Source of the DNA: Photobacterium sp. TY1-4
Lineage (GTDB): Bacteria; Pseudomonadota; Gammaproteobacteria; Enterobacterales; Vibrionaceae
Direction of reading: 5' to 3'
NCBI RefSeq assembly: GCF_025398175.1
Contig: NZ_CP099734.1
Coordinates: forward strand, 992,001-1,056,000
DNA: 64,000 nucleotides
In this document: positions 38,899 to 49,370 of the stretch, one piece after another
How the letters are laid out: the number at the start of each line of letters is the position of its first letter
Numbering within the stretch: position 1 is the first letter of the stretch
Made by a program: the position numbers and the translations under genes
Notes under the pieces: model-generated
What the model saw: only the letters and a program-made list of their open reading frames with translations
What the model was told of the DNA's origin: nothing
Database searches by the model: none

Positions 38899-39912
38899 AT
38901 GATTGAAGCCGATCGACTGGTTGCCAGTGATTTTCCGACCACCCGTGAGGAAGAGGTAATTGACCGCGCAATCCGCCCCAAGCTGCTCCAGGATTATCAG
39001 GGCCAGGATCATGTCCGGGGTCAGATGGAAATCTTCATTCAGGCGGCCAAGCTGCGGGATGAGGCGCTGGATCATCTGCTGATTTTCGGGCCGCCGGGAC
39101 TGGGGAAAACGACTCTGGCGAACATTGTTGCCAACGAAATGGGGGTCAGTATCCGCACCACCTCCGGACCGGTGCTGGAAAAAGCCGGGGATTTGGCCGC
39201 GTTGCTGACCAACCTGGAAGAAAATGATGTGCTGTTTATCGATGAGATCCACCGCCTGAGCCCGCAGGTGGAAGAAGTGCTGTATCCGGCGATGGAAGAT
39301 TATCAGCTTGATATCATGATCGGTGAAGGCCCGGCCGCCCGCTCGATTAAAATTGATCTGCCGCCGTTTACCCTAATTGGCGCGACGACCCGGGCCGGCT
39401 CGCTGACTTCACCGCTGCGGGATCGTTTCGGGATCACCCAGCGTCTGGAGTATTACAAGGTGGACGATCTGAAAGATATCGTCAATCGGAGTGCCAACTG
39501 TCTGGGCCTGTCGATGGAAGAAGCCGGGGCGATGGAAGTGGCGATGCGTGCGCGGGGCACCCCGCGGATTGCCAACCGCCTGCTGCGTCGGGTTCGGGAT
39601 TACGCCGAAGTTAAAGGGGACGGCCATATCTCACCGGATATCGCGGCAAAAGCCCTGGATATGCTGGACGTCGACAGCAGCGGATTCGATTATATGGACC
39701 GCAAGTTGCTGATGGCGATTATCGACAAGTTTATGGGCGGGCCGGTTGGTCTGGACAACCTGGCCGCGGCGATTGGCGAAGAAAAAGATACCATTGAAGA
39801 TGTACTGGAGCCGTATCTGATCCAGCAGGGTTATTTGCAGCGCACCCCGCGGGGCCGGATTGCGACCCATCGCGCCTATCTCCACTTTGGGCTTGATCTG
39901 CCGGAATCCTGA
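38899..39912 (+). CDS. ruvB: Holliday junction ATPase RuvB
   Basis: RuvB is the AAA+ motor for branch migration. Walker A is [12 protein letters not shown], Walker [10 protein letters not shown], sensor 1 [17 protein letters not shown], and the C-terminal winged helix ends with [13 protein letters not shown]. The length of 337 residues is normal. A bidirectional terminator separates it from the convergent amino-acid-oxidase operon. Confidence 0.98.
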
Positions 39913-39980
39913 CAAAGCCGCCGCGAATGCCGTGCGGTGGGGGCATGAATTATCTACCCCGTACCGAAAATACGAAATTT

Positions 39981-40020
39981 AAAAACGCCCGGAGCGATGA
40001 TCGCCCCGGGCGTTTTGTTT
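39981..40020. terminator. Bidirectional terminator between ruvB and the oxidase/peroxidase operon
   Basis: AACGCCCGG (39984-39992) pairs with CCGGGCGTT (40006-40014), with a smaller inner GCGA/TCGC pairing. TTTTGTTT follows on the plus strand, and the A-run before it gives TTTTTAAATTT on the minus strand, so both convergent operons may end here. Confidence 0.85.
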
Positions 40021-40086
40021 GGGTCGGTGGCTGTTTTAGTTTCCGTGTTCGTTGCCGTTGCAGGTTGCCACACGAGGTAGCCGCAC

Positions 40087-40635
40087 TTAGAACTCGGGAG
40101 GTATGTCTGGATCCGGGCGGGGCACATCAAAGGAAAACACCACGGTGCTGATCATCCGGTACATGCCGCAGGCCACCACCAGATCCAGTAAACCTTCTAC
40201 GCCGATGTTATGGATCAGGGCATCCTGGGTTTTGTGGGCAATGCTGCGCTGGTGGACTACATCTTGCGCAACTTGCCAAGTATAGCGGTAGCGCGGCGCC
40301 ATGTCGGCGGTTGCGAGATCGCCGGTCAGTACCTGTTCGACCACCGATGCGGGCAGGCCCGCCCGTTCGGCCGGGCGCAGGTGCTTTTCCCAGATAAACG
40401 GTGCGCCCAACTCGCGGGCGGTAGCGAGAATCCCCAGCTCTCTCAGGTCGCCGGCAAGGCGGCTTTCGTAGCGGACATAGGTGCCCAGTTGGCCGACATG
40501 CTGGGCCAGAATGGGGTGGTTCATCAGGGTGCGGTACATGCCGGACAATCCGTCGCGCGGGCCGATTAAGGTGTCGTAGATCTGCTGGCCCTGAGCATCC
40601 AGATCGCTGCGTTCAATTAACGGAAGACTTGCCAT
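40087..40635 (-). CDS. Carboxymuconolactone-decarboxylase-family protein (operon gene 5)
   Basis: The 182-residue protein has the CMD/AhpD-like helical fold, with the Glu75, Trp82 and His85 positions in RELGAPFIWEKH and a long C-terminal helical part. It lacks the CxxC pair of AhpD, so thioredoxin-like peroxidase activity is unlikely; a proton-transfer, lyase or hydrolase role is more plausible. The start at 40635 has AAGGA 7 bases upstream. It is the last gene of a five-gene operon, 41 bases after the ThDP-enzyme gene, and is paralogous in fold to the second gene. Confidence 0.82.
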   Translation of the reverse strand: MASLPLIERSDLDAQGQQIYDTLIGPRDGLSGMYRTLMNHPILAQHVGQLGTYVRYESRLAGDLRELGILATARELGAPFIWEKHLRPAERAGLPASVVEQVLTGDLATADMAPRYRYTWQVAQDVVHQRSIAHKTQDALIHNIGVEGLLDLVVACGMYRMISTVVFSFDVPRPDPDIPPEF

Positions 40636-40676
40636 GATGGATTCCTTGTCGTGATTCAAAGGGGCATCGGCCCGGA

Positions 40677-42491
40677 TTAATCTTCAGCCCAGTTCGGGTG
40701 TTCGATTTCTGTGCGCCACGGGTTAATCGGGGTCGGGAAAGACGGATCACACCGGGCATCAATCACAAAAGGGCCTTTGGCGGCAAAGGCGCGATCCAGC
40801 GCCGGGCCCAGATCGGCCGGATCATCGACTACGACACCGTCGCCCCCCAGGGCGCGGGCAAACTCGGCCCAGTTGTGGGTGGTGAGTGTGGTCAGTGTTT
40901 TGGCGATCGGGGTCTGGGCCCGGAGAAAGACATTGCCGAGGGCGCTGTTGTTGATCACCACCACAATCAGCGGGAGCTGGTGGCGGGCAGCAGTTTGGAT
41001 CTCGATGCCGTTCATCAGCATGCATCCGTCGCCGGTCACGATCACGCAGGGACTGTCGGGATTCGCAACTTTGGCGCCGATCCCGGCCGGAATGGCCCAG
41101 CCCATCGGTGCCAGTGCGGTGGCGGTTAAATACTGGCGCGGCCCCTGGCTCTGCCAGTAATGGCCGAGAAACGCCCGGTGCGCGCCGGAATCGCCGATCA
41201 CCACGGTTTCAGGTGGGGCGATTTGCTGTAACTCACGGATCACCCGGGCCGGATGCATGGGTGAGGCATCGCTTCGCCGGTTGGCCTCGTCATAAAACCG
41301 CGGCTGCCGGGTGATGCTGTCGAGCCAGGCTTGCCGGTTGGCATTGGAGGCCAGCAAGGGGGTGAGCTGCTGTTGTTGACCGGTGGCCAGGAGCCACTCC
41401 AGCACAGTGGTGATATCGCCGTTGATGGCCACTTCGATTGGATAGTTGCGTGAAAACGCGGTCGGTTCTATATCGACCTGCACAATGCCGCATTTCGGCG
41501 TCAGGTGACCATCCCAGCGCATGGTGTCGCGCTGATTGAGACTGGAGCCGAGTACCAGCAACAGGTGGTTGTCGGCAATGGCCTGATCCGGCGCGGTTGC
41601 TTCATCCGGCGCATCGTTGAGCAGGGCCAGGGTGGCGTGGCGGGTGCCGGCATAGCCGAAGACGCCGAGCGAGAGCGGGTGGTTTTCCGGAAAAACGCCT
41701 TTGGCTTTCAGCGTGGTCGCAACCGGGATCTGATACCGCTCAGCAAAGCGGATTAGTGACTGCGTCGCGCCGGAGCGCAGGGCGCCGCTACCGGCCAGGA
41801 TTGTGACATGCGGAGCTCCTTGTTCGCAGGCCTGTACCAAGCGTTGGCATAAGCTTTGTGTGGCCCCGGGATCCAGGGTTCGTGGACACTGGGTTGATAC
41901 CAGTGATTGTGGTTGATGGAACCTGGGTTGCGAGTTGACGGTCACGGGCTGGGTCTGAATTTGTTTCGGCAGGCTGAGACTGACCGGACGCGGGGTGCGG
42001 CCGAGCATGGTACGCAGGGACATATCCAGCAGGTGGGGCACCATCCGGGCTTCGGGAATGGTTTGGGCTGAGGCGGTGACCGATGCGAGAAATCCGATAT
42101 CGTTGATCCCGGCCGCGCTGGCATCCTGGAAGCCGCCTCTGCCCATCCATTCGGTGGGGATTTCACCGGCCAGTACCAGCAGCGGGGACTCATCGCTGTA
42201 GGCCGCGGCCAGCGGGCCGACCATGTTGGCGATGCCGGGGCCGCCAATCCCCATACACACGCCGAACTTACCGCTGGCCCGGGCATAGCCGTCTGCCATA
42301 TAGGCGGCTCCGGCTTCATTGGCTGCGACGATGGCTTTCATTTGTTGCTCATCTTCACCGAATTCGTCGAGAAACGGATCGACAACGCCACCCGGTACCA
42401 TAAACAGATGCGCAACGCCGTGCCGGAGCAGGGTATCGAGGATGTAGCGGGCCGCTGTCGGACCGGATTGATGCTCAGGTTGGATGGTCAT
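40677..42491 (-). CDS. Thiamine-diphosphate-dependent enzyme, acetolactate synthase/benzoylformate decarboxylase class
   Basis: The 604-residue protein has the three-domain layout of this class: a Pyr domain with catalytic Glu59 (AANEAGAAYMADGYAR), a central domain (about 205-370) and a PP domain with the ThDP motif GDGC at 487-490 to Asn514-Asn515. Such enzymes decarboxylate or ligate 2-oxo acids. Substrate cannot be told; no regulatory subunit is encoded nearby, so a decarboxylase or dedicated carboligase seems likelier than a housekeeping acetolactate synthase. The start at 42491 is supported by AAGGAG and lies one base after the peroxidase stop codon. A frame extending further upstream is antisense-free readthrough of the peroxidase gene and not real. 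Confidence 0.88.
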   Translation of the reverse strand: MTIQPEHQSGPTAARYILDTLLRHGVAHLFMVPGGVVDPFLDEFGEDEQQMKAIVAANEAGAAYMADGYARASGKFGVCMGIGGPGIANMVGPLAAAYSDESPLLVLAGEIPTEWMGRGGFQDASAAGINDIGFLASVTASAQTIPEARMVPHLLDMSLRTMLGRTPRPVSLSLPKQIQTQPVTVNSQPRFHQPQSLVSTQCPRTLDPGATQSLCQRLVQACEQGAPHVTILAGSGALRSGATQSLIRFAERYQIPVATTLKAKGVFPENHPLSLGVFGYAGTRHATLALLNDAPDEATAPDQAIADNHLLLVLGSSLNQRDTMRWDGHLTPKCGIVQVDIEPTAFSRNYPIEVAINGDITTVLEWLLATGQQQQLTPLLASNANRQAWLDSITRQPRFYDEANRRSDASPMHPARVIRELQQIAPPETVVIGDSGAHRAFLGHYWQSQGPRQYLTATALAPMGWAIPAGIGAKVANPDSPCVIVTGDGCMLMNGIEIQTAARHQLPLIVVVINNSALGNVFLRAQTPIAKTLTTLTTHNWAEFARALGGDGVVVDDPADLGPALDRAFAAKGPFVIDARCDPSFPTPINPWRTEIEHPNWAED

Positions 42492-42492
42492 A

Positions 42493-43956
42493 TCACGCTC
42501 CTTGCGGGGGGGCGAGCTGGCGCAGGAAATCCAGGCTCGGCATAAAGAAGTATTCACCGCCGCGATTTCTGACAAAGCCGGCGAATGAGAACTCGGTGGT
42601 ATCGGCGTTCGGATTGCTCCACTTGGCGCGCCATTGCTGGGGCGCAGGTGCGGTATCGGCCGGGGACTGGCCGACCAGCGGGTCGATGCCGGTTCCCTGG
42701 CGGACGAATCCGGCATTGTTACACCAGGTGTGCTGCATAAAGATAAACTGATCGACAATGCTGGCTTGCAGGCACAGGAACAGCAGGCCGGCATCGGTCC
42801 ATTCCTGCGTCGGATTGAGCTCGGTATCGCCGTAGCTGATCCCGCGCCGGACAATCCGGCGGCTGCGCTCAATGGTGGGCGGCGAGTTAAACTGGCGTAC
42901 GGTGTCGCCGCGCGGGTTGGTTTTGCGGGTGTGGGCGTGGAGCGGGCAGCGCAGGCCATCGACGTCCTCGTCGTAGTTGAAGTTGTTAAACAGGTTGCTC
43001 CAGCCATCATTACCCTGCTCGGAAATCGGGGTACCGTCTTTGAAGCGGCCGACACACAGGGCGCCGGCATATTCGGCGTCCACTTGAGTCGGGCTGGTTT
43101 CTGATAGGTGATTAGCCAGCAGGGTCAGGTGATCCCAGAATCCCTTGATGTTCTGTTGCAGCTTGCGGTAGACCACATAGCTGCCGTAGCTGTCGGCATC
43201 GCCCCCCGGATCTTTGGTCAGCACCAGGTTCAGCGGCGCACTGGGATCATTGCGGCTGTAGCCGCCGTTGCGAAATTCTTCGTTGAGATCACTGAACAGG
43301 AACTTCGGGTTGCTGACACCGTCCACAAATCCGAAATGTTCAATCACCTGGCCTTTGTCGTTGCGCATCACATGGCCCCGCTGGATCAGCACGATGTCCA
43401 GCGTGTCGCCACAGGTGTGTTGTAACGCTTGGATTTCTGCCTCCAGCACCTGTTCGGCATGCTCGGCATCCACGCCACCGAGCGCTAGCAGGAGCATCCC
43501 GTCGATACGGCCCTGAAAGCCGGTTTCCCACTGGCGGATATCGTCATTGAGCGGATTGGCTGTCGGCGTGTGATCGCCGCGAGGCAAGGTATCGAACGGG
43601 GTTTGCAGATCTTTCATCCCGGCCCGGAAAGCCGGATCGTCCGGCCAGTCTTGTGGGTCAATATCTAACTGCTGGTAACCGCCGGCGCTGAGCATCAGGT
43701 TGACAAACAGGTGGGCCTGGCCGGTTTGTTTGAATGACATTTGTTGCTGGTGCTGATCCAGGGCCGAGGTGACTTTCTCCGCCAGTTGGCGGATCGCTTG
43801 CCGGTTCTGGCGGGCGTCGCCCCGGAGCGCAAAAAACAGATGGCGCGAATGCTCCCGGCCATGGCCTTTGAGAATGTTGCCTTGCAGGTTGTGAAACACG
43901 GCCCGGAAGTTGGGGTCATCAATTTCAATATTGGTTTGATTGAGGTTGGCCGACAT
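42493..43956 (-). CDS. DyP-type heme peroxidase, long form
   Basis: The 487-residue protein is a dye-decolourising peroxidase. It has the distal GFVDG motif (Asp212), the proximal heme His342 in RCPLHAHTRKTNPRG and the RRGISYG segment with distal Arg. The length and the NPR motif resemble the long (class C/D-type) DyPs such as those of cyanobacteria rather than the ~300-residue bacterial class B. There is no Tat or Sec signal, so it should work in the cytoplasm with H2O2 as cosubstrate. AGGAG precedes the ATG at 43956. The upstream flavin oxidase could supply its H2O2. Confidence 0.92.
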   Translation of the reverse strand: MSANLNQTNIEIDDPNFRAVFHNLQGNILKGHGREHSRHLFFALRGDARQNRQAIRQLAEKVTSALDQHQQQMSFKQTGQAHLFVNLMLSAGGYQQLDIDPQDWPDDPAFRAGMKDLQTPFDTLPRGDHTPTANPLNDDIRQWETGFQGRIDGMLLLALGGVDAEHAEQVLEAEIQALQHTCGDTLDIVLIQRGHVMRNDKGQVIEHFGFVDGVSNPKFLFSDLNEEFRNGGYSRNDPSAPLNLVLTKDPGGDADSYGSYVVYRKLQQNIKGFWDHLTLLANHLSETSPTQVDAEYAGALCVGRFKDGTPISEQGNDGWSNLFNNFNYDEDVDGLRCPLHAHTRKTNPRGDTVRQFNSPPTIERSRRIVRRGISYGDTELNPTQEWTDAGLLFLCLQASIVDQFIFMQHTWCNNAGFVRQGTGIDPLVGQSPADTAPAPQQWRAKWSNPNADTTEFSFAGFVRNRGGEYFFMPSLDFLRQLAPPQGA

Positions 43957-44052
43957 TGCGTGTCTCCTGATGAATTTTTTGTGTTGGCAAACAGGTGAAG
44001 CATGGGTTCGGATGGTCCCGGATTCGCCGGTGCCCGGCACCGGCGATACGGA

Positions 44053-44655
44053 TCACTCCGTCAGGGTCCGGTTGCTGGGGGAAGCGTGGCGATCCGGTTC
44101 CGGCAGATGCGGCCGGTTTGCCGGGGCGGCCAGCTCGGCAGCGTTCAAGATGCATGACACCATGGCGTAATAGCCAGCCAGGGCAACAATGTCGGTGATC
44201 TCGCGGGCGCTAAAATCTGCCGTCAGTGCGCGGTAGCTGGCATCGCTGATCCGTTTCTGCTCAATCAGTTCCCGAATGCTGTGGATCAGGACCGCGGCAT
44301 TGACTCCGGCAAGCTGCCCCGGGGCGATCGGCGCTTTGGCTTTGATCTGCTCAATCAGTGAGACGGGGATCCCGGCAGTTCGGGCTGCTGTTTCGTGGGC
44401 TGCCCATTCAAACTGGCACAGGTGTTCGCGCAGCGTGGTCAGGATCACCAGCTCTTTGACGGGTGGGGGTAACTGAGTTTCAAAGCGTAAGTAGCCGCCC
44501 AGCTGCGCCGTATATTCAGCCAACGATGGGCTGTTGAGCAGCAGGGCAAAAACGCCGACCACATGGCCGCGGCTCTGGTGGATCTGGTCGTAGACCCGGC
44601 AGCCTTCTGGGTCAAGTCCTTCGGGCTGGTCGAAATAGGGTAAGCGTGGGCTCAT
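44053..44655 (-). CDS. Carboxymuconolactone-decarboxylase-family protein (operon gene 2)
   Basis: The 200-residue protein has the CMD fold with Glu77, Cys80, Glu83, Trp84 and His87 in EHLCQFEWAAH. Only one Cys is present, not the CxxC of AhpD. It is distinct from the paralogue at the end of the operon. Its ATG overlaps the stop codon of the flavin oxidase gene (ATGA), so the two are translationally coupled and probably act on the same pathway. A Pro/Arg-rich tail follows the domain. Confidence 0.83.
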   Translation of the reverse strand: MSPRLPYFDQPEGLDPEGCRVYDQIHQSRGHVVGVFALLLNSPSLAEYTAQLGGYLRFETQLPPPVKELVILTTLREHLCQFEWAAHETAARTAGIPVSLIEQIKAKAPIAPGQLAGVNAAVLIHSIRELIEQKRISDASYRALTADFSAREITDIVALAGYYAMVSCILNAAELAAPANRPHLPEPDRHASPSNRTLTE

Positions 44656-46451
44656 GCGTTCACCCCCGGGGTCAGTGTCGGGAGCGGATCTTCATTGACC
44701 AGCAGCGCGGCATTGACCGCTGATTCAATAGCACCTTCAATCCAGGCGTGTTTCAGCGAGGCATGTTCGCCGGCAAAGTGCAGGATTGGGCGCTGAGTCT
44801 GGGGATCGGCCCATTCGGAACGGATGATGGCGTGGTGCAGGAGTTCCAGTTGTCCCGGATAGAAGATGGCGGCTTCGCCGAAGGCATGGGGGTTGTTCAT
44901 CCAGCTAACGGTCGCGGCGCCGACAATCCGGTCCTGATCATGGCGATAGCGCTCGGGCTGAAAGACACAGAGATCCCGGATTTTCTGCTGGGCTTTGCGC
45001 CGGGTGGCGTAATCGGCATCCGGCTCATGAATGGCGTGGGTGATGGCGACATTTTCCAGTGCATAGCAGAAGCGTTCGTACTCTGTCATGGAATCCCATT
45101 TCCGGGCATCGTCGGCCCAGGAGTAGCTGGCCAGCATTACGCCACCTTTGCCGGAGCCCATGCGCTCACTCGGGTAGTACATGAATCGGTTCGGCAGATC
45201 CGTGACTGAACCGCCGCCGTAAATCTGGTTTTCTGTTTCCCAGAAACGCTCGCGAAACTCTAGCAGCACTTTGGTCGCAGCATCATAGTGCAGCTCCCGG
45301 ATCGCCTTGTGCTTTTCCTGGCTCATTTGCGGCCAGATGTGCACCATCCGCAAACTGGAAAACGGGATCGTCACAATGGCTTCATCCCAGCTGCGGTTTG
45401 CCAGCATTTTCGCGATTTCTTGATCGCGCGTGGTTTGCTCGTTCACTTCCGAAGATACTTCGGTCGTAATTTTGACCTTGCCGGTTTGCTCGCAGCGATA
45501 AAGGTTGGTCAGGGTCTGGTTGAGAAAGGTGATGTCGTCCAGACGGTGTTTTTCAAAGTAGGCCTGGGTGAATTTGTCCGTCCCACCCTTAATGAGCCAG
45601 AAGGGGGTATCGGGGGTAATGATGGCCAGCTCGATAAAGCTCTGAATGAAGGAGTAGGACATCCGTGATTCGAGGTTCTCCAGCACCCCGATCATCTCAA
45701 TGGCATTTTCCGAAAGATCCGGCAGTTTCTCTTTCAGGAAGCGGCGCATGGAATACTCGCCATAGCGCTGGATAATTCTCGGCCAGGCCGATTTGGGGTC
45801 TTCGGCCACTTCCCGACGCAGCTCGCCGATCGCGGCCTCCAGTAATTGGCTGGCTTGCCGGTTTTCCTCGTCCTTGAGTGCGTAGTTCAGCAGTTGGCTG
45901 ACATCTTCGCTGTGCTCGTACTCGGCCCGGGTGGTATGGGCGTAGTTGACATGAATGAGGTTATTGCCGGTCGCCGGCAGGTTGCTTAAATCGACATTGC
46001 CGTCGTTGTCACGCAGCGGATGGGTGAGTTTGTCTGAGGTGGCATCGATTTTGGATATGGCGCGATTGAGAAACAGCTGCTTGTCGACGCCGGTATCTTC
46101 TATCAGAAATTGCACCAGTTTGTGCATATCCGGAATGCGCATGGCGCCGGCTTCACCCGTCAGGTTGTCATCCTCAAAGTAGCGTTTTTCCGGCGTATTG
46201 CGGAAGGTTTTGATCCGTCCGCCGACGCGGTTGGCTGCTTCGACAATGGTGACGTTGTGTCCGGCCTGTTTCAGTAGCGTGGCGGACACCATGCCGGCGA
46301 TGCCGCATCCGACGATCAGGATATTTTTCGGCACCACCTGGGTGCCGGGTAAGCCATGTTGCAAGTAGTGCATGTAGGCCTGGCTGATCTCATCCTGTTC
46401 ATAGGGGAGCAGGCCGTGGAGTTCATCTGCAAGGGAAGTGACGTCAGTCAT
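44652..46451 (-). CDS. L-amino-acid-oxidase-like flavoprotein (flavin amine oxidase family)
   Basis: The 599-residue protein has the FAD-binding GCGIAG (48-53), Glu71 for the ribose, and GGRIKTF, and a C-terminal FAGEHASLKHAWIEGAIESA that closes the FAD site as in L-amino acid oxidases and tryptophan oxidases. The family oxidises an amino acid or amine to the imine, releasing H2O2 and, after hydrolysis, a 2-oxo acid and ammonia. No signal peptide is present. It is the first gene of the five-gene operon, with AAGGA 7 bases before the ATG. Substrate is unknown. Confidence 0.87.
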   Translation of the reverse strand: MTDVTSLADELHGLLPYEQDEISQAYMHYLQHGLPGTQVVPKNILIVGCGIAGMVSATLLKQAGHNVTIVEAANRVGGRIKTFRNTPEKRYFEDDNLTGEAGAMRIPDMHKLVQFLIEDTGVDKQLFLNRAISKIDATSDKLTHPLRDNDGNVDLSNLPATGNNLIHVNYAHTTRAEYEHSEDVSQLLNYALKDEENRQASQLLEAAIGELRREVAEDPKSAWPRIIQRYGEYSMRRFLKEKLPDLSENAIEMIGVLENLESRMSYSFIQSFIELAIITPDTPFWLIKGGTDKFTQAYFEKHRLDDITFLNQTLTNLYRCEQTGKVKITTEVSSEVNEQTTRDQEIAKMLANRSWDEAIVTIPFSSLRMVHIWPQMSQEKHKAIRELHYDAATKVLLEFRERFWETENQIYGGGSVTDLPNRFMYYPSERMGSGKGGVMLASYSWADDARKWDSMTEYERFCYALENVAITHAIHEPDADYATRRKAQQKIRDLCVFQPERYRHDQDRIVGAATVSWMNNPHAFGEAAIFYPGQLELLHHAIIRSEWADPQTQRPILHFAGEHASLKHAWIEGAIESAVNAALLVNEDPLPTLTPGVNA

Positions 46452-46873
46452 AGGAAGTCCTTTTATCGATCTCGGTCATTGCGACTGACGCTCGGGCAAG
46501 GCCGGGTGGTGCTGTTGGATATCGGCCGGAAACCAAAGCAACAGCCACGGAAAAGACGGCTGAACACAACGCACGTATGGTTTGTAGTGTTACGGAGCGA
46601 ATGTCCGTCAAACTAGACTTTGGTGACGGACTTGACTCTTCATTGACCCTAGAACAGATGTCGGGTGCGACAAGCCGGGGTGCTGGTTTATCACGCCGGA
46701 CTTAAAAAACTTGGAACCGAGGTTAGATAAATATGTAATTGAGGTGAAGAAAAGTTACGGCAGGGCGTGGCATGGTCGCGGTGATGGCGGCCAAACAGGA
46801 AAGATTGCCCGGGCGGTGACGGACCCGGGCGTTTGGCGTTTTTTGGCTCGCTGAGGTTAGAGCGGCAAACCGA
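46452..46873. other. Intergenic region upstream of the oxidase operon
   Basis: These 422 bases lie between potD and the oxidase operon on the same strand. They hold the operon's unidentified promoter. On the minus strand GCCCGGG (46824-46830 on the plus strand) and CCCGGGC (46807-46813) form a stem about 45 bases beyond the potD stop codon that may end its transcript, with a poor U-run. I see no gene. Confidence 0.5.
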
Positions 46874-47908
46874 TCAGCTTTTGAGCATCTGCCAGTATTT
46901 CTGGTAGATCTGGATGGCATCACCGACTTCGTTGGTGAATTCCCCTTTATTGATGTCTTCCTCGGGTGGGAAAATCGTCGGGTTGTCCTGCACAGCCTGC
47001 GGCAGGAATTGCTTGGCTTTTTTGTTCGGGGCCGGGAAGCCGTACTCTTCGACGAGTTTTGCTTGATTTTCAGGCTGATAGATAAAGTTGATGAACTCGT
47101 GTGCCAGATCCTGATTCTCGCTGCCGGCCGGAATGATGAAATTGTCCATCCACAGGATCGAACCCTCGGTCGGATAGATAAACTCCAGTTCCGGCATTTC
47201 CTGCTTGGCGAGATAGGCGTTGCCGTTCCACTGCATGCCGACGTTGGCTTCGCCGGTCACGTAAGGGACATGCGGGGCATCGGAGTTGTAGACGATAATG
47301 TTCGGGCGTAGTTGCAGCAGGGACTCGTAGGCTTGCTTAATTTCTGACTCGTCACGGGTATTGATGCTGTGCCCCTGGGCTTTCAGCGCCATGCCGAAGA
47401 CATCCCGGACGTCATCGAGCAGCATCACCTGCAGGGCAAAGTCCTTGGCCCACAAATCACGCCAGCCTTTCACTTGGCCGGCTTTGACCATGTCGGTGTT
47501 ATACGCAATGCCCGTCACGCCCCAGACATACGGCAGGGAATAGTCATTGCTTGGGTCAAATTCCTGTTTCAGCAGGCCGGGGTAGACATCCGCCAGGTTC
47601 GGGATCTTGGATTTGTCGATTGTTGCCAGCATCCCTTCGCGGGCCATTTTTTCAATAAAATAGGTCGACGCGAACACCACATCATAGCCTTTGTTATCCA
47701 GCAACTTCAGCTTGGTGTACATCCCTTCGTTGTTTTCAAAGGTCGAATAGTTCACGGTGACCTGGTATTGCTTCTCGAATGCTTCCAACACCTCGGTCGG
47801 CATATACTCCGCCCAGTTGTAAACGTTCAGCACCTTATCTGCGGCCGAGAGAGGAAATGCGGATAATGCAAGTGTAAGTGCGGTCACCCCTTTGAGATAA
47901 TTTGTCAT
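46874..47908 (-). CDS. potD: Polyamine-binding periplasmic protein, PotD/PotF family
   Basis: The 344-residue protein has a Sec signal peptide (cleavage after AFPLSA) and the PotD fold, beginning LNVYNWAEYMPTEVLEAFEKQ. It includes FASTYFIEKM, YVWGVTGIAYNTD, VGMQWNGNAY and EGSILWMDNFIIPAGS, which line the polyamine site in PotD. No potABC genes are next to it, so it must use a transporter encoded elsewhere or be a sensor partner. It is divergent from a puuB-like oxidase gene, which fits polyamine use. Confidence 0.9.
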   Translation of the reverse strand: MTNYLKGVTALTLALSAFPLSAADKVLNVYNWAEYMPTEVLEAFEKQYQVTVNYSTFENNEGMYTKLKLLDNKGYDVVFASTYFIEKMAREGMLATIDKSKIPNLADVYPGLLKQEFDPSNDYSLPYVWGVTGIAYNTDMVKAGQVKGWRDLWAKDFALQVMLLDDVRDVFGMALKAQGHSINTRDESEIKQAYESLLQLRPNIIVYNSDAPHVPYVTGEANVGMQWNGNAYLAKQEMPELEFIYPTEGSILWMDNFIIPAGSENQDLAHEFINFIYQPENQAKLVEEYGFPAPNKKAKQFLPQAVQDNPTIFPPEEDINKGEFTNEVGDAIQIYQKYWQMLKS

Positions 47909-48092
47909 GGTTGGTCATCCTGTGACGGGTAGTCAGAAATGGATTGCGGATCATAGGAAAGGGCGGGTCGCTGTCAAAACAATCATTTCATAAATTTGAC
48001 TCGAGTCTCGATAATAAATTGCTTGTCTCCGATATGCACCCGTGACAACATTCGCGCGTTTTTTTTCAGGTTATTGGTAAGAGCAACTCGGC

Positions 48093-49370
48093 ATGTTCAA
48101 AGACAGTGATTATATCCAGAGCTATTATCAGGCGACGGTGAACCCGTTTCCCGAGCAACCTTCGCTTGATCAGAGCGTTGAAGCGGATGTGTGTATTATC
48201 GGCGGTGGCATGACCGGCCTGAGTGCGGCGATTGAATTGCGTCAGAAAGGGTATTCGGTAGTGGTGCTGGAGTCCCGCCGTCTGGCCTGGGGCGGCTCGG
48301 GCCGCAATGGCGGGCAGTGCCTGGTCGGCTATTGCCTGGGGCTGCGTGAGGTGGATGAGACCTACGGCCCGGCGTGGGGCAAGCAGTTGTGGGATCTGTC
48401 CTGTGAAGCGGTGGATATTGCCCGCGAGCGGATAGAACGTTTCAATATTGATTGTGATTTCCGCCAAGGCTATATCGAGCTGGCGCTGAACTCTGGCCAG
48501 GAAACCGAGCTTCAATCCTGGCTCGAGTTGAAACAGAGTCGTTATGACTATCCGAGTGCCAGTTGGTGGGATCAGTCAAAAATTCATCAAGTGGCGCACA
48601 CCGAACGCTATCTGGGCGGGTTGTACGATGCCAACAGTGCTCATTTGCATCCGCTGAACTACACGCTGGGACTGGCGCAGGCCGCGAAAGACCTCGGGGC
48701 CTCGCTTTATGAGCACAGCGCGGCGGTCAAGATTGAACAAGGCCAGCCCCATGTGGTCCATACCGCCAAGGGGCAAGTGAAAGCCCGGCAGGTCCTGCTG
48801 GCGTGTAATGCTTATCTCGACGGTCTGGATCGCAAAGCGCAGAGTGTGGTGTTGCCGGTGGCTTCTTATATTGCGGTGACTGAGCCGCTGGGTGAGCGCC
48901 AGCCGATCAGCAATCAGATGGCGATGTCGGACTTGAATAACTGTCTGGACTATTACCGCCCGACGGCGGATGGCCGTATTCTGTTTGGCGGGGTAAATCA
49001 TCCGTTTAACGGCGAATATGCAGACTCGATGGAGCGCTTGCGCCAACGGTTGATCACTGTGTTCCCGCAGTTGTCGGATGTCAAAATGGACTATCACTGG
49101 GGCGGCCTGTTTGCCGTGACCCGCTCTTACATGCCGCACATTGCGCATCTGGGGAAAGATATCTACGTTGCACACGGCTATACCGGGCATGGCGTCGGGC
49201 TGACCAATATTGCCGGGAAAGTTGTGGCGGAAGCGATGGCGGGTCAGTCAGAGCGCTTTGATGTATTTGCTCGGATCAAGCAAGGTTGGATCCCAACCCC
49301 GCAAGTGCTGCGGACACCGGCGTTGGCGCTGGCGATCTGGAAAGCCAAACTGGAAGATGCGCTGGGCTGA
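48093..49370 (+). CDS. FAD-dependent oxidase, PuuB-like (gamma-glutamylputrescine oxidase type)
   Basis: The 425-residue DAO-family flavoprotein has the FAD-binding GGGMTGLSAAIELRQKGYSVVVLE (37-60 region), the WGGSGRNGGQ segment typical of PuuB, and a C-terminal HGYTGHGVGLTNIAGK. PuuB oxidises gamma-glutamylputrescine in putrescine breakdown. No puuA, puuC or puuD genes are present here. The divergent potD gene supports polyamine chemistry. A strong terminator follows. Confidence 0.85.
   Translation: MFKDSDYIQSYYQATVNPFPEQPSLDQSVEADVCIIGGGMTGLSAAIELRQKGYSVVVLESRRLAWGGSGRNGGQCLVGYCLGLREVDETYGPAWGKQLWDLSCEAVDIARERIERFNIDCDFRQGYIELALNSGQETELQSWLELKQSRYDYPSASWWDQSKIHQVAHTERYLGGLYDANSAHLHPLNYTLGLAQAAKDLGASLYEHSAAVKIEQGQPHVVHTAKGQVKARQVLLACNAYLDGLDRKAQSVVLPVASYIAVTEPLGERQPISNQMAMSDLNNCLDYYRPTADGRILFGGVNHPFNGEYADSMERLRQRLITVFPQLSDVKMDYHWGGLFAVTRSYMPHIAHLGKDIYVAHGYTGHGVGLTNIAGKVVAEAMAGQSERFDVFARIKQGWIPTPQVLRTPALALAIWKAKLEDALG

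Follow-up and report, generated by a model that had tools for sequence, protein, structure and literature searches.

A conserved five-gene operon of Photobacterium that may couple oxidation of an acidic L-amino acid to a DyP peroxidase and a ThDP-dependent enzyme

Why do genes for a flavin amino-acid oxidase (LAAO), a long DyP-type peroxidase (DyP), a ThDP-dependent enzyme and two CMD-family proteins (CMDa and CMDb) stand together on one strand of a Photobacterium genome? The window analysed here is a stretch of 64,000 nucleotides from Photobacterium sp. TY1-4, and its relevant features are collected in Table 1. A sequence-only reading had described five tightly packed open reading frames, all of which were present on the minus strand at 40087-46451 in the order LAAO-CMDa-DyP-ThDP-CMDb, with intergenic gaps of -4, 96, 1 and 41 bases. 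The four-base overlap and the gaps of 1 and 41 bases agreed with that description; the 97 bases given between CMDa and DyP were one too many. A good ribosome site had been claimed for every gene, and such sites (AAGGA, AGGAG, Shine-Dalgarno-like) precede LAAO, DyP, ThDP and CMDb but not CMDa, which has a run of G only. The family assigned to each protein was borne out by Pfam domains, CMDb falling just below the PF02627 cut-off.

Table 1. Features of the cassette and its borders in the window.
Feature	Position	Strand	Domain or remark
LAAO, 599 aa	46451-44652	minus	PF01593 E=4.5e-49
CMDa, AhpD/CMD-fold protein, 200 aa	44655-44053	minus	PF02627
Long DyP-type peroxidase, 487 aa from ATG	43956-42493	minus	PF21105 + PF20628
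ThDP-dependent enzyme, acetolactate-synthase superfamily, 604 aa	42491-40677	minus	PF02776 + PF00205 + PF02775
CMDb, CMD-family protein, 182 aa	40635-40087	minus	PF02627 22.3 bits, just under 23-bit cut-off
Terminator-like hairpin between cassette and ruvB	39982-40016		symmetric enough for both strands
Terminator-like hairpin 3' of potF, separates potF from cassette	46807-46830	minus	consensus match only, weak T run

The hairpin next to ruvB was spotted by eye and is absent from the list of the consensus terminator scan; read on the minus strand, it has a folding energy of -29 kcal/mol (z -7.3), and its stem carries five U at the 3' edge. A single sigma-70-like match was found in the region, fewer than in shuffled sequences, so no promoter is claimed, and no Rfam family was found in 39850-48100. 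The cassette has a GC content of 0.593 against 0.546 in the rest of the window; GC3 is similar, and composition therefore says little.

The five genes are one conserved, true unit. A search for the neighbourhood across genomes, proposed with the sequence-only reading as a check on a single pathway, found orthologues of DyP, CMDa and LAAO in an identical set of 7 among 247 Vibrionaceae genomes. Gene order and strand were constant in all seven cassettes (LAAO is interrupted in one), and the cassettes lay in at least four different surroundings: ruvB and potF in two, one common neighbourhood in three, and two others. CMDb was approximately 72-91% identical to its copies in ten other cassettes, and dN/dS ranged from 0.02 to 0.14 in 14 gene/pair comparisons of cassette genes. 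The gene-distance correlation was high between LAAO and DyP (0.94) but low between LAAO and CMDb (0.19), the latter counting against the explanation preferred below. At 23 of 25 ruvB loci there was no cassette within 1.5 kb; potF was not found there either, so no empty site is defined.

More distant relatives were also sought, those of CMDa by way of genome samples, plasmids and a single GTDB-based scan with two peptide patterns. At five loci with distant CMD matches, tblastn with the five cassette and five neighbouring proteins gave CMD matches only. Near DyP-like matches, no other cassette genes were found among open reading frames of at least 90 aa in four neighbourhoods (of six phylum-sample loci other than the cassette's own), one of these lists (L074) having missed the DyP gene itself; this, too, speaks against the preferred explanation. 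At the DyP-like locus L076 a neighbouring protein has a catalase domain. Four of the eight plasmid records with ThDP relatives were inspected: those of Serratia, Aquicella and Pandoraea adjoin cupin, methyltransferase or transporter genes, and that of Paraburkholderia phenoliruptrix is paired with a CMD gene. A DyP homologue on a Gloeothece plasmid adjoins a galactose-oxidase-like protein, a GMC oxidoreductase and a PF12902 ferritin-like protein.

The closest PDB relatives of LAAO are L-glutamate oxidases (LGOX) of Streptomyces (7e0c, 8jpw and 2e1m; 306 bits). LAAO R105 aligns with the arginine of LGOX that binds the alpha-carboxylate (R124 in LGOX numbering), and R263 aligns with LGOX Arg305, a residue said to recognise the substrate side chain. 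This position was Arg in 7 of the 10 sequences compared and Phe or Ile in three other LAAOs; the Peribacillus LAAO has Phe there, and neither a DyP nor a ThDP gene adjoins it. The alignment places LAAO in the subfamily bearing the LGOX arginine. On this residue evidence the substrate would be an acidic amino acid, with L-glutamate the likeliest, and the product 2-oxoglutarate.

The residues named in the sequence-only reading were likewise present and invariant in the aligned orthologues: the GxGxxG and RxGGR motifs of LAAO, the catalytic Asp (D212, in GxxDG) and proximal heme His (H342) of DyP, and E59, GDG (487-489) and NN (514-515) of the ThDP enzyme. DyP scored 116.9 bits for TIGR01413 (cut-off 100.5), and its closest solved relative is Alr1585 (PDB 5c2i; full-length match, 337 bits), presumably from Anabaena. 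The best solved relatives of the ThDP enzyme are BbmA (290 bits) and then CsmA (194 bits). Against the acetolactate synthase model TIGR00118 it scored 325 bits, short of the equivalog cut-off of 538. Two of its arginines, R439 and R524, stand unchanged in each of the 11 cassettes. The two CMD proteins lack CxxC, as had been noted, and CMDa retains one invariant cysteine (C80). Members of the AhpD family carry the pattern CxxCxxxH; CMDa has an invariant C80-x2-E83-x3-H87, the same pattern with its second Cys replaced by Glu, and CMDb has neither CxxC nor CxxE at those places. When models were compared, the AhpD/CMD fold was clear for CMDa and a weak match for CMDb. The comparison pointed to a fold and nothing beyond it, so that the handling of an intermediate, the role given to the CMD proteins in the sequence-only reading, is a possibility.

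An amino-acid oxidase, a DyP and a ThDP enzyme also occur together in Streptomyces, where they come from other subfamilies. On Streptomyces plasmids three contiguous genes encode a DyP, a ThDP enzyme and, between these two, an LGOX homologue that scores 1104 bits against 7e0c. This trio was found in 10 of 10 Streptomyces records whose LGOX was at least 94% like the query, close strains that count as one independent case or two. Of eight other records with LGOX-like oxidases three were inspected, and neither a DyP nor a ThDP gene lay beside the oxidase. The Streptomyces ThDP enzyme is of a different kind, PDC/indolepyruvate-decarboxylase-type, with Ala and Met aligned at the positions of R439 and R524. 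These three points count against the preferred explanation. The trio is probably an independent assembly. Together with identical co-occurrence and an order kept in varied surroundings, it lends strong support to the earlier claim of one pathway.

Among 246 genomes of the Thalassomonas family, four carry a related unit, CMDa-DyP-ThDP-CMDb. Directly upstream of it, in all four loci, lie genes for a ferritin-like, a LodA-like and a LodB-like protein, the trio of a quinoprotein oxidase, and both units are preceded by a copy of one upstream element. One locus has LAAO beside the LodA-like oxidase. The other three lack it, the search in G936, G949 and G997 giving nothing better than E = 5e-5 with a query that found the orthologues in G142 and G1031. 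The LodA-like protein has the LodA_N and LodA_C Pfam domains but falls below the NCBIfam equivalog cut-offs for LodA/GoxA (272.6 bits where 600 are required, and 187.8 where 750 are). No LodA-like gene was present in the window, and none was found in its genome in a search run without a positive control.

We hypothesize that the cassette is a horizontally mobile, oxidative operon acting on an acidic L-amino acid, with the 2-oxo acid and H2O2 both used downstream; mobility and chemistry taken jointly, we give this explanation about an even chance. LAAO would deaminate the amino acid, most likely L-glutamate, to its 2-oxo acid (2-oxoglutarate), NH3 and H2O2. The ThDP enzyme would bind and decarboxylate the 2-oxo acid, ending either in protonation, to succinic semialdehyde, or in ligation to a second carbonyl compound. 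DyP would consume the H2O2, either on a substrate of the pathway or to shield the 2-oxo acid and LAAO from attack. The two CMD proteins probably pair, and may act in peroxide or redox handling or on the product of the ThDP enzyme. The division of labour among oxidase, peroxidase and ThDP enzyme follows the sequence-only reading and stands as the best one, with support gained from the second, Streptomyces assembly; its individual steps, namely substrate, direction, product, use of H2O2 and role of the CMD proteins, we infer. That reading recognised no described pathway with this set of genes, and we found none in the open-access literature.

A bolder version is improbable. It holds that oxidising an amino acid, clearing the peroxide and using the keto acid is a module that has been assembled convergently with a glutamate oxidase as its entry. 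In the marine form, the ThDP enzyme would ligate an acyl anion derived from 2-oxoglutarate to give a new metabolite, H2O2 would drive the oxidation of that metabolite by DyP, the AhpD-fold pair would be a new, Cys-x2-Glu type of enzyme, and in Thalassomonas a quinoprotein could replace the flavin oxidase. To our knowledge, the natural role of L-glutamate oxidase, a well-known biosensor enzyme, is not settled. The Streptomyces trio hints at it, and the presence of LGOX or its relatives beside DyP and a ThDP enzyme for 2-oxo acids in two unrelated lineages opens that role to testing. Few natural substrates are known for long DyP peroxidases, and to have a dedicated source of H2O2 encoded alongside one offers a concrete clue to them. 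Comparing the Thalassomonas genome that has both a flavin and a quinoprotein amino acid oxidase with the three relatives that are without the flavin enzyme amounts to a natural experiment on the requirements of the downstream genes.

The alternative that survives best, although we hold it to be doubtful, is a biosynthetic operon. Here the oxidase would supply a 2-oxo acid, the ThDP enzyme would condense two 2-oxo acids to an acyloin as CybE does, DyP would oxidise and the CMD proteins decarboxylate or isomerise the product, and a small metabolite would be secreted. Its attraction lies in BbmA and CsmA being the closest solved relatives of the ThDP enzyme. The BbmA of the PDB is, we assume, the protein called 'BpmA' in one paper on furanolide biosynthesis. 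That paper names CsmA and 'BpmA' as CybE homologues of that pathway. Directly after the unit, all four Thalassomonas loci have genes for a permease and an ABC ATPase (the ATPase of L066 is DrrA-like), and the CMD-fold protein Bmp8 acts in bromopyrrole biosynthesis. Against this, the five-gene unit includes neither a CoA ligase nor a synthase nor a tailoring enzyme, and G484 of BbmA corresponds to Arg524 here.

Unlikely, in our judgement, is that the cassette generates H2O2 for antagonism or in biofilms, with LAAO or the LodA-like oxidase as source, DyP and the AhpD-fold proteins as protection for the producer, and the ThDP enzyme removing the 2-oxo acid. Marine LAAO and LodA proteins do make H2O2, and amine oxidation with its release is what the Thalassomonas genomes have in common, whether LAAO stands beside the LodA-like oxidase (one genome) or the latter stands alone (three). 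Two reports (PMC4417212, PMC4699246) connect LodA-type proteins with antibacterial action and with the dispersal of biofilms through H2O2. However, no obvious signal peptide was seen by eye at the N-terminus of LAAO or of the Thalassomonas LodA-like protein, and release of H2O2 needs neither a dedicated ThDP enzyme nor two conserved CMD proteins.

A very small chance is left to catabolism of polyamines or lysine-type amino acids in league with the adjoining potF and puuB-like genes. PotF-type and PuuB-like proteins, named by eye, are encoded at 46874-49370 and adjoin the cassette in G000 and G142, but tblastn found them beside only one (G142) of the six other Vibrionaceae loci, and a hairpin parts potF from the cassette. 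Chance clustering of housekeeping-type enzymes with unrelated roles, which the commonness of all five families and the distant CMD homologues in unrelated contexts might suggest, is refuted in practice by three members sharing the same 7 of 247 genomes, by a gene order that stays constant from one setting to the next and recurs in a second family, and by the Streptomyces counterpart. Anti-phage defence was also considered and rejected: PADLOC gave one match, to a desaturase-type FAD domain on LAAO, and none for the other four proteins.

The preferred reading, a mobile operon oxidising an acidic amino acid, can be set against several known systems. As in LodA/LodB operons, LodA-like and LodB-like maturase genes adjoin the Thalassomonas unit, whereas the window has neither. 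LodA-type genes are associated with PF12902 ferritin-like genes in fungi, according to one study (PMC4417212). The CxxC redox motif of AhpD alkylhydroperoxidase is absent from both CMD proteins, CMDa having CxxE in its place; with AhpD/CMD proteins, CMDa shares the Glu and His positions, and its model predicts the AhpD/CMD fold that the debrominase Bmp8 has. DyP has its catalytic Asp and heme His at the same positions as Alr1585, for which we know of no amino acid oxidase context.

With acyloin synthases of the CybE/BbmA type, the cassette enzyme has in common the ThDP fold, the catalytic Glu and GDG...NN. BbmA and CsmA are C-C linking enzymes, which counts against the preferred explanation. 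The small residue G484 of BbmA has no counterpart, Arg524 taking its position, and the furanolide synthase and CoA ligase of BbmA/CsmA/CybE furanolide-type pathways are absent within the five-gene unit. A second comparison is with MaKGD, the ThDP-dependent alpha-ketoglutarate decarboxylase of Microcystis, whose Lys386 and Lys471 contact alpha-ketoglutarate in a docked model. Matched by spacing from GDG and not by alignment, these lysines would correspond to R439 and R524. By spacing only, Ala384-His385-Lys386 would match A437-H438-R439 and Ala408/Met410 A461-x-M463, whereas the substrate contacts Val382 and Leu467 would become Ser435 and Asn520, and Asp462 Asn515; no position in the cassette enzyme could be assigned to Gln254. 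The two changed substrate contacts and the missing place for Gln254 weigh against the preferred explanation. LAAO is approximately 38-42% identical to the Streptomyces plasmid LGOX homologues. It differs from LGOX in the pocket residue His312, which is Gln270 in the three cassette oxidases compared, and in lacking LGOX chain residues 438-513, the aligned chain jumping from 437 to 514 between LAAO residues 408 and 409, a gap that a second alignment also shows. Both differences count against the preferred explanation. LGOX and LAAO have in common the alpha-carboxylate Arg, the Arg at position 305, the Tyr/Trp pair (SYSW) and the FAD motifs.

The five genes of the cassette form a true unit, as the neighbourhood search across genomes proposed in the sequence-only reading now bears out. 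Presence searches with CMDa, DyP and LAAO as queries covered 247 Vibrionaceae genomes. Orthologues of CMDa (at least 45% identity) were found in seven, and the same seven carried DyP (7/247) and LAAO at 72% identity or more. At looser thresholds, any CMDa match at E ≤ 0.001 occurred in 14/247 genomes, the seven non-orthologous ones being weak (best E = 3e-17), and any LAAO match at E ≤ 1e-10 in 12/247, of which the five outside the cassette set were partial matches at 31-35%. Gene order was identical to that of the window in all six other Vibrionaceae loci, and the flanks differed. The cassette is flanked by ruvB and potF in the window's own genome and in G142; genomes G105, G072 and G152 share one neighbourhood near a 1076-aa protein that by eye looks like CarB; and G097 and G008 have two further, different surroundings. 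Among 25 genomes searched with RuvB, the cassette lay within 1.5 kb of ruvB only in the window's genome and G142.

The cassette fills 40087-46451 of the minus strand, with intergenic gaps, in cassette order, of -4, 96, 1 and 41 bases. It is set apart from ruvB, which runs convergently, by a hairpin that folds strongly (-29 kcal/mol, z -7.3), and potF is followed by a weaker site resembling a terminator. Given this packing and these two sites, the cassette looks like a single predicted transcription unit, distinct from its neighbours. A promoter for this unit could not be called. Next to the cassette, at 46874-49370, lie two proteins named by eye, a PotF-like binding protein and, divergent, a PuuB-like FAD oxidoreductase; both are its neighbours in G142 as well.

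Genes of the window cassette and of the Streptomyces plasmid trio (locus L078, plasmid NZ_CP108875.1)
Gene	Record	Position	Strand	Remarks
LAAO, flavin amino-acid oxidase	window	46451-44652	-	PF01593
CMDa, AhpD/CMD-fold protein	window	44655-44053	-	PF02627
DyP, long peroxidase	window	43956-42493	-	DyP_N + Dyp_perox_C (Pfam)
ThDP-dependent enzyme	window	42491-40677	-	three TPP domains (Pfam)
CMDb, CMD-family protein	window	40635-40087	-	PF02627 match slightly under cut-off
DyP	L078	7428-8918		contiguous with oxidase
LGOX-type oxidase	L078	8935-11046		contiguous with DyP and ThDP genes
ThDP enzyme	L078	11043-12887		contiguous with oxidase

Values of dN/dS ranged from 0.02 to 0.14 (14 gene/pair comparisons, three genome pairs). 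Gene-distance correlations between members were high for LAAO-DyP (Spearman 0.94), DyP-ThDP and LAAO-ThDP (both 0.83); agreement was moderate between CMDa and the rest (0.64-0.68) and lower when CMDb was compared to DyP (0.56) or ThDP (0.49). Because this agreement is uneven, and poor for LAAO-CMDb (0.19), individual members may have been exchanged long ago.

CMDb was also sought in 84,980 species genomes, with two peptide patterns that could miss distant copies, and four loci were returned: three Vibrionaceae cassettes and one in Thalassomonas sp. RHCl1, in whose family the gene was present in 4/246 genomes. All four Thalassomonas loci keep CMDa-DyP-ThDP-CMDb and carry, upstream on the same strand, genes for a PF12902 ferritin-like protein, a LodA-like CTQ-oxidase and a LodB-like maturase (named by family searches on locus L066, and in the other three through 72-99% identity). 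Genome G1031 has LAAO (74%) between this trio and the rest of the cassette, making eight genes. In G936, G949 and G997 LAAO was absent from the locus and the best genome-wide match reached only E = 5e-5, with a query that detects LAAO in G142 and G1031. The most economical history is loss of LAAO from an ancestor with eight genes, wherever the quinoprotein oxidase could take its place; alternatively, G1031 may have gained it. An element of about 100-120 bases 5' of the ferritin-like gene has a second copy in front of LAAO or CMDa in each locus (L066, L089, L090, L091), and its recurrence before both transcription units suggests joint control. No regulator was identified for this element; by eye, L066 has a TetR-like ORF, seemingly in divergent orientation. 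Each of the four loci continues directly 3' of the cassette, in the same orientation (10672-14599 of L066 and its equivalents), with a DrrA-like ABC ATPase, an ABC-2 permease and a KefB/KefC-like antiporter, named by family searches on L066, to which the other loci are 90-98%, 93-98% and 91-99% identical, respectively.

The LAAO was aligned with Streptomyces L-glutamate oxidase (LGOX). R105 falls at the alpha-carboxylate Arg, Y443/W445 at the pocket Tyr/Trp, and R263 at the Arg305 position, where 8jpw has Arg and 7e0c, presumably the R305E mutant, has Glu. Arg occupies the R263 position in 7/10 aligned oxidases (three cassette, four actinobacterial), and Phe or Ile in the other three. One of these three, with Ile, is a second LAAO-like protein of the window's genome (L103, on a different contig, C2, 1912850-1914097; 32% identical over the matched part). 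A Gln in place of His312 and the lack of one LGOX insert count against a strict glutamate oxidase. In G072 the LAAO is interrupted, with two pieces in different frames (L056, 6965-8775), through pseudogenization or assembly error; the cassette is otherwise intact.

CMDa and CMDb share about 30% identity. The confidence of their models is modest (pLDDT 71 and 62). Both match structures of the AhpD/CMD family, Bmp8 among these; the match of CMDa alone lies well above the chance level of helical proteins. C80, E83 and H87 of CMDa are invariant. A redox or decarboxylase-like accessory function for the two proteins is our guess.

The L078 oxidase is a close L-glutamate oxidase homologue (1104 bits to 7e0c). 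The Streptomyces trio was probably assembled separately from the marine cassette, judging by the low identity of its DyP (27%) and ThDP enzyme (22%) to the window counterparts and by the other type of the latter (pyruvate/indolepyruvate decarboxylase). LGOX-like oxidases occurred on 18 plasmid records; DyP and ThDP genes lay at adjoining coordinates in all 10 records with at least 94% identity to the query, which are close strains, and no such genes lay beside the oxidase in the three inspected of the remaining eight. A pairing is also hinted at on a Gloeothece verrucosa plasmid (L083, 5187-14249), where a long DyP (40% identical) has a GMC oxidoreductase, a galactose-oxidase/glyoxal-oxidase-like protein and a ferritin-like protein (PF12902) as neighbours: another DyP beside likely H2O2-making oxidases. 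We found no description of the five-gene combination in open-access papers, in agreement with the sequence-only reading, which recognised no described pathway with this set; within that literature the operon, its Thalassomonas variant and the Streptomyces counterpart appear undescribed, and the member families are known.

For the ThDP enzyme, PMC10418658 presents a docked model of Microcystis alpha-ketoglutarate decarboxylase (MaKGD) in which six residues lie at alpha-ketoglutarate (Lys386, Lys471, Gln254, Val382, Ala408 and Leu467) and one, Met410, at ThDP. By spacing counted from the GDG Asp, not by alignment, Lys386, Lys471, Val382, Ala408, Leu467 and Met410 correspond to R439, R524, S435, A461, N520 and M463 of the window enzyme; Gln254 could not be placed. 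R439 and R524 are invariant in 11/11 cassettes; in the alignment of ThDP relatives these positions hold Ala and Met in the Streptomyces enzyme, and Ala and Arg in that of Paraburkholderia phenoliruptrix pSYMBR3459. The latter is 42% identical to the window enzyme, and its gene is overlapped by 4 bases by a 127-aa CMD gene (L079, 8603-10698), which likewise hints at pairing; dmpG and acetaldehyde dehydrogenase genes precede the two. Carbon ligation instead of plain decarboxylation is a serious alternative, because the best solved relatives of the window enzyme, BbmA and CsmA, both link carbons, a context set out in passages of PMC12395478 (BbmA spelt there as BpmA).
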